A DNA stretch of 64,000 bases from Auricularia sp. M13 (lineage: Eukaryota > Basidiomycota > Agaricomycetes > Auriculariales > Auriculariaceae), in assembly GCA_037042915.1 (NCBI GenBank), contig CM073197.1:3844001-3908000 (forward strand). The letters are read 5' to 3'. Positions 101-4,800 of the stretch are shown here, in pieces. A program made the position numbers and the translations under genes. Under the pieces are notes generated by a model that did no database searches, was not told the origin of the DNA, and worked only from the letters and a program-made list of their open reading frames with translations. Position 1 is the first letter of the stretch. Each line of letters begins with the position of its first letter.

Positions 101-1334
101 AGTCGGGCTGCCGCTGTCGCTTGCGGAGGTGCGGCGGAATGGGTTGGGCGAGACCATCGTGAGCGTCAAGGAGAGCGTGCGCGAGTGCGACGTGTACATC
201 ATCAACACGGGCGCCCACCCGACCGACAGTGTCAACGCGAGCCTGATGGAGACGTGCATCCTCATCCACGCGTGCCGCATGGCGTCTGCCAAACGCATCA
301 CCGCCGTCATCCCGCTCTTCCCGTACGCCCGCCAGGACAAGAAGGACAAAAGCCGCGCGCCCATCACGGCCAAGCTCGTCGCGAACATGATCCAGAAGAG
401 CGGTTGTGACCATGTCATTGTGCGTGCTCGCTCGCTGTCTCGTTTAACATGCTTGGATTGACTCCCTGCAGACGATGGACCTCCACGCCAGTCAGATACA
501 GGGCTTCTTTGACGTGCCCGTCGACAAGTGTGTCCTGCTCCACACCCTGTCAGCTTTGTGACTGACATCCTGCCTGCAGTGTAAGCACATTCCTTTTCCC
601 GCATGTGTTAGGGAATATCACAGCGGGTAAAACAAGCTGGATAATGTCCAACGGACTGTCCGCAGTCTCCGGCTGGTCGTGACTGCCTTTTTCGGCTCAC
701 ATGATTCGCTTGTGCTAGTCCCCATCCTGTTCGGAGCGCTAACAGGCATGCACAGCTCTTTGCAGAGCCGAGTGCAATTCGGTACATCCGAACTCACTTC
801 AACGTGCCCGACGTGGTCATCGTTTCGCCTGACGCTGGTGGCGCAAAGCGGTGAGTGCCATTCGCGCAGAAGCGCCGTCGCATTTGCAGGCGCTGACAGT
901 GATGCAGCGCCACGTCGATCGCGGACCGGCTCGGAGTGGATTTTGCGATCTTCCACAAGGAGCGCAAGAAGGCGAACGAGGTATCGCGCATGGTGCTCGT
1001 CGGCGGCGTGCGCGGGAAGACGGCCATCCTGGTGGACGACATGGCCGACACGTGCGGCACCATCGTCCTCGCGGCGTCGCATCTGGCCGAAGCGGGCGCG
1101 TCGCAGGTGTTTGCAATCGTCACGCACGGCATCCTCAGCGGGCGGGCGCTGCAGACGGTGCAGGAGAGCGCGCTGGAAAAGCTGGTCGTGACGAACACGA
1201 TCCCGCAAGCGGACAACGTGGCGGCGTGCGGGAAGATCGAGGTGCTGGACATTGGCCCCGTGCTGGGGGAGGTGATTCGGAGGAGCCATTATGGCGAGAG
1301 CGTGTCGCAGCTGTTCCACGAGGTGCCGTACTGA
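101..1334 (+). CDS. PRS: Ribose-phosphate pyrophosphokinase (PRPP synthetase), 5' end missing
   Basis: Makes PRPP from ribose-5-phosphate and ATP for purine, pyrimidine, histidine and tryptophan synthesis in the cytosol. Seen in order: [17 protein letters not shown], the flexible catalytic loop [27 protein letters not shown], the NLFAEPS segment, [10 protein letters not shown], and the PRPP-binding loop [12 protein letters not shown]. Exons 101-419, 472-527, 580 (one nucleotide), 756-850 and 908-1334; from the first full codon at 102 these give 299 codons including the stop. The first exon in view begins after an AG at 99-100, so the N-terminus (about 20 residues in relatives) lies on an exon outside the window. 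An alternative acceptor at 744-745 would avoid the one-base exon but puts KHAQ in place of the conserved N before LFAEP. Confidence 0.93.
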
Positions 1335-1808
1335 GTTTCTCTAGAATTATAGACTGCTGTTATCGTGGCAAAGAATCTCGCGCGGTTCGCACATCATGAA
1401 CTGTTATGATGTGGGGGTTCGGAAGGCCGAGACGCGCGAGGCCATCGAGCAATCCTAATAGACTCCCGGCTTTGCAAAGTGGGGCTGGCGTGGGAGAGCG
1501 GGTTTTGGGCGCAGGAGTGCTGAGTACGATGAGGACTGAGAGGATAGATGGGGAGGCTGCGAGCCATAGATGACAGAAAACTTGAGATGTCTCGAGAAGA
1601 GAAGCCATTTCGTGATCCGATGGATGTGCTTCTGGGCTCTCTGCGAGAAATTGGGTCCGCGGGCGAGGGTCGGTTTGCTCCCGGGCGGGCGGACGCGGGC
1701 GGGGAGTTTCGTTTTCTCTCGCCTCGTCGACGCCGCGCTCGCTGGGGGCTGTTATGTCCGTCTGAGCTCGTCTGAGCTGCTGCCCATGCGCCCCGGACGC
1801 CGACTGCC

Positions 1809-4800
1809 ATGTACTCGAACGGCGTGCAAGTCCAGCACCCAGCCCACCATCACCACCACCACCCGCATCCCCTACAGCACTCTAATTACCCGCCGCCAGA
1901 ATACGCTGCTCAACGCCAGCTGCCAGTTGCTGCGCAGGCCCACGCCCACGCCCACGCCCAGCCGCCTCAGGCTGCGAGCCAGACGATGCAGCAGCACCCG
2001 CAGCATCCCACAAGCCAGCAGCAGCAGCCCAGGCTCACCACCGAGGTCGTCCTGGGCATCCCCTCAATGACCCTGGCCGGCGACCGCATGCTCGTGGGCG
2101 ACGCCAACTCGAGTGCGTCGCGCGCCGTAACCCGCTTATCGCCCGCCCACTGACCGCATTGCCAGCCTCGACGCGGTCGTGGACCCAGCTCAAGCTGGTC
2201 GGCAACGGCTCGTTCGGCACCGTCTGGCTCTGCGACTGGCACTCGCCGCTCCCGCCCGGCACGCCGCTCTCGCCCATGCAGTGCGGCGCCGGCGCCCGCC
2301 CAGAGTGGAACGGCAAGGTGCTCGTCGCCCTCAAGCGCATGAAGAAACGCTGGGAGCGCGGCTGGGACGAGTGCAAAACCCTCAAGGAGCTCGAGGTGAG
2401 CCCTAATTGCATTGGAATATACAATACTGACCTTTGCCAGTCGCTCCGCTCGATCCCCCCGCACGAAAACATCATCCCGCTCTACGACTATTTCCTCCTG
2501 CCCAGCACGCGCGAGCTCTATTTCGTCTTCGAGTCCATGGAGGGCAACCTCTACCAGCTCATCAAGACCCGCAAGGGCCGCCCGCTCGCCGGCGGCCTCA
2601 TTTTTTCCATCTTCCGCCAGGTCGTCAACGGCCTGCACCACATCCACGCCTCCGGCTACTTTCACCGCGACATGAAGCCCGAGAACCTGCTCGTCACCAC
2701 CACTGGCCTGGCCGAGTACGTCCCCACCTCGCCGCTCGTCCCGCGCGACGGCACCGCGCCGTCGGAGAAGGACGTTATGGTCATCGTCAAGATCGCCGAC
2801 TTTGGCCTCGCCCGCGAGACCCGCTCGCGCCCGCCGTACACCGAGTACGTCGCCACGCGCTGGTACCGCGCGCCCGAGATCCTGCTCCGCTCGCGCGACT
2901 ATTCCAATCCAGTCGACCTCTGGGCGCTTGGAACGATCCTCGCAGAGCTCATCAATCTCAAGGCGCTGTTTCCCGGCCAGGGAGAGATCGACCAGGTCTT
3001 GCGCATCACCGACATCCTCGGCAACCCGTCCGACGAGTATGGCCACGATGAGCGAGGACGCGTCATTGGTGGCGGCCCGTGGCCACGCGGCGTCGCAATG
3101 GCGGAATCGGTCGGATACATGTTTCGCAAGGTCTGTATTTGCGTTTATGTCATTCGGCAGCCACATCTGACTGACTGACACTTTACAGACCCAACCTGTC
3201 GTTTTCTCCACGCTCTTCGAGCCGTCAGTGCCGCGTTCGCTCATTGACTGCATCGAGGACCTCCTTCGCTATGACCCCGCGAAGCGCCTTACGGCGGCCG
3301 AGTTGCTGCATCACCCGTACATGCTCGAGATGCAGCAGTTGCCGCCCCTCAACCCCATTACGCCGCAGCCGCCGCCACCTCCCGCGGCGAAGCGGAGACA
3401 GCCGGCACCGGCGCCGCAGAGTCTGCCGTCCGTGTCGCCGCGGTCTGTCCCGCCGTCGCATTCGCACTCGCCTGCACAAGGCAAGGCGCCGTTTCCGCCC
3501 CCGCCCCACCTCCACCACCCTCTTCTGCCCGAACAGGCCGCGTCGCATCGACAACCGTACTTCCCGCAAACGCACATGGACGCGGACATGTCCGACGGGA
3601 GAGCGCCTCCCTCGCCCACACCGTCCTCGGTGTACTCGTATGGCGGCGATCGCGTCAACGCGAATGGCTCCATCGGACGTGGCGCGGGGCACGACTGGAA
3701 CGCGATGGCGGTGGACGGCGAGGACGAGGACCTGGAGAACACGGCCGTTGGGGACCATTTGCCGCCGCACGAAGCGCATACCGCTCAGCCGCAACAGCAC
3801 AAAACGGGGCTCATGGGCTCGCTCAGCTTCAAGAAGCCGCGCGGGTGGGGCATTTTCGGCGGGGGGGACAAGAACGCGCAAGGCGCGAATCCGCTGTCGC
3901 CCGTCGACGAGCACAGTCACGTGGGCGCTGGCTCGTCGTCGACGCCGAGCTTGAAGCGGCCCAAGTCCGGCGAAGGCTCGATGTCGGACGGGCACTCGCT
4001 GCCGGAGCTGCCGCCGCACCCGGTACAGCCGCCGGTGGACAAGAAGATGCGCAAGGAGATGAAGCGGGCGCAGGAACGCGCGGCCCGGGACGAGGAGCGG
4101 GCGCGGCGCGCTCTCGCCGAGAGCTGGAACCGCGAGCAGGCGCGCGCGGTCATCCTCAAGCGGCAGCAGATGATCCGGCAGAACACGCAGGGCACAGACT
4201 TCGACTGGCACGGCTCCGTCGCGTCGCATCTGGACGCGACGCGACGCCAGCAAGAAGACGCTCGTCGTGCCCACCGTCAAGGAGCCCCAGCCGCAGCCGC
4301 CGGCGCCGCCCGCGGTCCCGGTCGAGATGCAGCACCCGCTACCGCACACGTTGCACCCGAGCAAGAGCTTCCTGAGCAACGCCGGCACGGTGGGCTCGTT
4401 CGGGACAATGCGCTCCGACCTGCCAGCCGTACATCGCTATTCGGACGACAGCGTGCAGCATCGGACAAAGGCGCGCCGACGCGACGCGGACGACGACCAT
4501 TCGAACAGCGACGTGCAGTCTATAAGCCACATGTCCATGATCTCGTTCGCCACGGTCGACAGCGACCCCGGCCCTGCGCGCCGTCCGCATGCGCACCACA
4601 CCGGCCCACCGCCGTCCGCATACAGCGTCGCGAGCTTCCGGACGACGACAGATCATTCGCAGCACTCGTCATTCGAGGGCGCGCTCGCGAGTGATTTCAG
4701 TCGACATAGACTGAGTAGTGCTGCGAGCTCGTACGGTGCAGGCTCTCCCTCGCCCGTGCTCCATCCTGCGGGCAGCCCGCCGCCGCTCAGCCCGCCGCCC

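Follow-up and report, generated by a model that had tools for sequence, protein, structure and literature searches.

A predicted single-nucleotide exon in a PRPP synthetase gene of Auricularia sp. M13

Results

Organization of the PRPP synthetase gene

The window (the whole stretch of 64,000 nucleotides of Auricularia sp. M13 analysed here, which is part of contig C5) carries a PRPP synthetase gene at its left edge. The ATG of this gene lies 271 nt before window base 1, and exons 1 and 2 are upstream of the window. The initial annotation had counted the exon set from position 102; the set is in frame when T580 is included, but position 102 lies inside exon 3 and is preceded by the two upstream exons. 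With T580, the joined exons give an in-frame coding sequence of 972 nt, corresponding to 323 amino acids plus the stop, with the following organization:

L004 2763-2808 (upstream of the window): intron 1, 46 nt
L004 2849-3100 (last base at window position 100): intron 2, 252 nt
101..419, + strand: exon 3, joined coding sequence in frame
420..471, + strand: intron 3, 52 nt
472..527, + strand: exon 4, with the 3' end GAC AA providing two bases of the N codon
528..579, + strand: intron 4a, 52 nt, GTGTGT...CTGCAG, branch GACTGAC with A at 565
580, + strand: single-base exon T (predicted), completing the codon for N150 at its third position
581..755, + strand: intron 4b, 175 nt, GTAAGC...GCACAG, branch CGCTAAC with A at 742
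744..745, + strand: AG three bases past the branch A; serves as acceptor in the 218-nt alternative, otherwise predicted to be skipped
756..850, + strand: next exon, starting CTC TTT GCA GAG (LFAEPS)
851..907, + strand: intron 5, 57 nt
908..1334, + strand: last exon, with the stop TGA at 1332-1334

The adjoining gene (window 1808-4694) looks like a protein kinase, which we take to be of the MAK/Ime2 type.

One base is required to keep the reading frame

Exon 4 ends with GTC GAC AA at position 527 and homology picks up at position 756 with CTC TTT (L F). When 527 is joined directly to 756, the product is exactly one base short and the frame is broken, and an in-frame stop is met if either 528-579 or 581-755 is retained. 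The remainder of the reading frame of the gene is intact. Inclusion of T580 completes an Asn codon, AAT, which would be a minority choice in this gene (elsewhere AAC is used eight times and AAT once), and restores D-N-L as in the paralogue. T580 is needed strictly for the frame and only moderately for the residue N itself.

In the 52.1-Mb genome, assembled in 14 contigs, only two genes of the PRPP synthetase family were found. The paralogue (L005, C4:686501-691500) reads GTC GAC AAC CTA TAC at the corresponding site, uninterrupted by any intron and without extra residues at D-N-L. Introns 1 and 2 and the intron following GGAK are common to both genes, and the paralogue has no introns at the sites of intron 3 and introns 4a/4b. 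These introns were therefore either gained in the window copy or lost from the paralogue. The two genes also differ in that intron 2 is 252 nt long in the window gene versus 48 nt at the same place in the paralogue, and in that the paralogue carries an additional 89-nt intron after ISHG.

Splice signals flanking T580

Splice matrices were built from 264 kb of this genome, using 122 confident introns from which the gene's own introns were excluded. Three gene-finder settings were used; the first yielded far too many introns, the second too few, and the third, a permissive one, supplied the matrices. The two best acceptors in the gap between 527 and 756 are 579 (9.69) and 755 (8.61), which keep the top two places in 197 of 200 bootstraps, and the two best donors are 528 (5.05) and 581 (3.47). 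The choice of the inner donor is not robust, as 581 scores barely above 658 and leads in 104 of the 200 bootstraps, against 86 led by 658. Donor 581 is also only average, at the 34th percentile of training donors. The signal sum of intron 4a falls at the 70th percentile of the 122 training introns and that of intron 4b at the 33rd. T580 is flanked directly by the AG of one complete predicted intron and the GT of the next; for both, the coordinates, the lengths of 52 and 175 nt, and the donor and acceptor agree with the initial annotation. The branch sites that it had named, CTGAC and CTAAC, are contained in the best branch matches, GACTGAC and CGCTAAC.

The gene finder, run with the third setting, picked the parse with the one-base exon unprompted. 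This choice carries little weight because the program was over-free with introns (12 of its 333 internal exons were 3 nt or shorter, four of them zero) and also placed a spurious start and a spurious intron in the PRPP synthetase gene. Another one-base exon that it proposed, near L006 4360, is probably spurious.

One possibility is that longer exons lie beside T580, or start at it, within 580-755. The protein would then gain 1 to 38 residues between D149 and L151, as it would if 528-579, 607-665 and 712-755 were removed. Nineteen such parses, all of which leave the flanking protein unchanged, have higher raw splice sums than the one-base exon (21.92 for the best, against 15.83), but this is because introns carried no charge in the comparison: a third intron is required in 17 of the 19, and the lead of the best parse would vanish at about 5.5 nats per intron. 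Intron 528-579 is itself used in 16 of these parses. All 19 add residues at a site whose spacing is fixed in the paralogue and in 15/15 bacterial relatives, and we regard this class of parses as highly improbable.

The alternative already named in the initial annotation, a single 218-nt intron (528-745) yielding a product three residues longer, is indeed in frame, with canonical GT-AG borders and a signal sum of 11.24 (24th percentile of training introns). Its weakness on the branch side was correctly seen: the AG at 745 sits three bases past a good branch A, and its use would otherwise require a branch 47 nt upstream. Acceptor 745 is moreover weaker than acceptor 755 by 2.6 nats (5-95% range 1.1 to 3.8), the longer product loses 9.6 bits in NF002320 and 9.7 bits in TIGR01251, and extra residues at this site occur in 0/15 bacterial relatives and not in the paralogue. 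This alternative thus appears very unlikely. The skipping of an AG so close to the branch, which the one-base exon implies for intron 4b, has a counterpart in the same gene. In intron 1, an AG three bases past the branch A is passed over for a later one, so that the intron ends with GCAAG; the frame demands this because the first AG, if used, would give an in-frame TAG. An AG lies between the modelled branch A and the AG used in 37 of the 122 training introns, although this count is partly circular because the branch search started 9 nt from the acceptor.

Chance expectation and the possibility of a missing base

The AG at 578-579 (CAG-T-GTAAGC) is the sole AG in 540-755 with N-GT next to it. 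AG-Y-GT with equal or better combined signals appeared in 10 of 5,000 and in 31 of 20,000 dinucleotide shuffles of the gap. The count was 10 in 20,000 when the left intron also had to measure 45-70 nt, and 70 in 20,000 when the exon base could be any nucleotide. Five equally good sites, the T580 site among them, are present in 526,400 genome positions (264 kb, both strands), which corresponds to a rate of about 0.0013 per 138-base stretch in this genome sample.

The strongest rival to the one-base exon, which the initial annotation had overlooked, is a one-base deletion. A single 228-nt intron (528-755) would be removed, the third base of the Asn codon would be missing, either through loss in the assembly or through a true deletion in the strain, and AG-T-GT would be there by chance. 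The assembled sequence at stake is GACAAGTGTGT. The outer signals of such an intron would be good (13.66, 57th percentile of training introns), and long introns do exist in this genome, where 10.7% of the 122 training introns exceed 90 nt and intron 2 of the same gene reaches 252 nt. A scan of the assembly for frameshifts also leaves room for a lost base: it made no call in 109,806 coding bases, yet it was insensitive, recovering 10 of 81 planted deletions; looser settings recovered 26/81 and 48/81, with 2 and 10 calls, respectively, without a planted deletion. However, the missing base must be precisely the one at the junction, which is not part of any notable homopolymer, in a gene whose frame is otherwise intact, and a one-base exon of such quality must have arisen there by chance, as it did in only those 31 of 20,000 shuffles. 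We therefore consider a missing base unlikely, although its probability is not negligible.

Taken together, the frame, the splice signals and the comparison with relatives make T580, between introns 528-579 and 581-755 as originally proposed, the best-supported reading, and we believe with good confidence that this base forms an exon of its own in a class I PRPP synthetase gene. This confidence was not computed as a posterior. It is a judgement in which a chance of roughly 1 in 600 is balanced against approximate priors, both for one-base exons and for an error striking precisely this base.

The conserved site in the protein family

The predicted product, a class I PRPP synthetase, exceeds the gathering scores of both PF13793 and PF14572. 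With N at the site completed by T580, it scores 380.9 bits in NF002320 (cut-off 297) and 358.7 bits in TIGR01251 (cut-off 113). The scores are 379.2 and 357.1 bits with K, and 371.3 and 349 bits with KHAQ. Two of eight NCBIfam models, PRK03092 and PRK02812, slightly prefer K over N (0.3 bits; differences are small), and the Pfam models did not tell the readings of the site apart.

A K at this position, giving D-K-L, would result from a single intron with a non-canonical border, either 528-754 ending with CA or 529-755 beginning with TG. This product would be in frame. Replacing N with K lowers the score by 1.6 bits in both NF002320 and TIGR01251, and some other models do not penalise it at all. 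Nevertheless, both borders are outside GT/GC-AG, and K is absent at this site from the 15 bacterial relatives, the paralogue and the four PDB alignments inspected, which leaves such an intron with an almost negligible probability.

In each of the 15 bacterial relatives that were fetched, a single residue separates D from L; it is N in five, D in four and Y in six of them. The spacing at the D-x-L site is better kept than the residue itself. The initial claim that T580 is needed for a conserved DNLFAEPS accordingly holds for the frame, for the restoration of D-N-L and for the spacing, but not for the N as an invariant residue, given its presence in 5/15 bacterial enzymes. VDNLYAEP is found in the four PDB chains inspected of the 32 matched, all labelled ribose-phosphate pyrophosphokinase 1. 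Counted along the PDB-chain alignment, the residue at the site aligns with N144 of PRPS1. The base T580 completes the codon for a position at which a change, N144S, is listed in relapsed leukaemia (PMC7403961). Relatives retrieved from viral_contigs (two loci, then 80 kept of 111) are phage-type enzymes that mostly read PVTHIEGK or similar at the site, where the alignment of some rows shows gaps of 1 to 5 residues. These enzymes were judged uninformative.

Discussion

A possible splicing route

How T580 would be retained in the mRNA can be inferred from the sequence. Introns 4a and 4b may each be recognised alone, by intron definition, in which case no complex would have to form across the one-base exon. 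The acceptor of 4a and the donor of 4b, being one base apart, are presumably not bound simultaneously, so that consecutive removal of the two introns would be expected. Removal of 528-579 first seems the likelier order, because this intron is of typical length, its sites are good, and it would leave a better donor behind: the resulting AAT|GTAAGC would be slightly stronger than the original donor (3.92 versus 3.47 nats). Subsequent removal of 581-755 would then connect AAT with CTC. The expected misproduct would have 527 joined straight onto 756 and would be frameshifted.

Origin of introns 4a and 4b

We looked for a source of the two introns within the gene and the genome. The idea that intron 4a is a duplicate of the 52-nt intron 3 found no support, since 22 of 52 positions are identical without gaps and the global score was reached in 167 of 2,000 shuffles. 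Local scores between other pairs were reached in shuffles (n = 500) as follows: 19 times for introns 2/4b, 26 for 3/4b, 54 for 4a/4b and 205 for 2/4a. An introner element was also rejected, as 581-755 and 520-585 match only themselves in the genome, in a search that omits simple repeats and very common words. No processed mRNA copies were present among the seven protein matches in the genome.

PRPP synthetase genes of ascomycetes have an exceptional record of intron gain: Nielsen et al. (2004, PMC532390) reported 22 raw gains, distributed over three of four lineages. The enzyme is the same as here; the organisms are ascomycetes, and a one-base exon is not described in the available part of that work. 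Two gains close to each other are less surprising in the light of this reported record. It is tempting to suggest, as something possible rather than probable, that introns 4a and 4b are two separate gains one base apart. They would form a 'near-miss stwintron', that is, a coding one-base exon dependent on obligatory consecutive splicing, located in a basic metabolic gene and outside the genes reported so far.

Comparison with known single-nucleotide exons and stwintrons

Documented nuclear single-nucleotide exons are few in the literature searched: two plant genes and one Fusarium P450 subfamily. Mitochondrial cases have reportedly been found in placozoan cox1 and in Ophiostoma mitogenomes. 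By title or abstract, the literature searched showed no example from a PRPP synthetase gene and none from a basidiomycete. The description of such exons as extremely rare is therefore sound, but the single precedent first cited, Arabidopsis APC11 (PMC4674806), has to be joined by plant VPS55, reported together with APC11 (PMC8831610), and by Fusarium CYP621A (Nelson and Syed, 2026, PMC12940212). T580 is probably a new case of this known, very rare kind.

As in plant APC11 and VPS55, one base is required for the frame of a cellular housekeeping gene. The plant exons differ in being documented by RT-PCR, RNA-seq and, for APC11, mutated constructs, and in their conservation across many land plants (PMC4674806, PMC8831610). 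The single-nucleotide exon of CYP621A shares other features with T580: it too occurs in a fungus, with one base between AG and GT in a conserved motif, a phase mismatch as the clue and the frame rescued by that base. It differs in the gene, in the base, which is G (AGGGT), and in its documentation, having been found in 24 of the 24 genes examined and covered by 18 RNA reads (PMC12940212); here the base is T, in one genome.

If the one-base exon of the PRPP synthetase gene is real, the spliceosome would cope with such exons in ordinary fungal genes, including that of a basic metabolic enzyme in another fungus, and intron definition combined with consecutive splicing could be put to the test at this locus. 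It also matters for annotation, which will either frameshift this gene or add spurious residues to its product.

The stwintrons of ascomycetes offer a second comparison. They also consist of two U2-type introns so close that their removal must be consecutive, under intron definition, but in their case a splice element of the external intron is split by the internal intron, with no base retained (PMC12403724, PMC5639578). A stwintron in the strict sense was rejected for the gene studied here: removal of the whole of 528-755 breaks the frame, and the left intron ends one base ahead of the next donor and not inside it, that base being coding. The predicted splicing would therefore resemble that of stwintrons in its working and not in its anatomy. 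Should introns 4a and 4b indeed be a near-miss stwintron, stwintrons and one-base exons would lie on one continuum of closely spaced intron gain.
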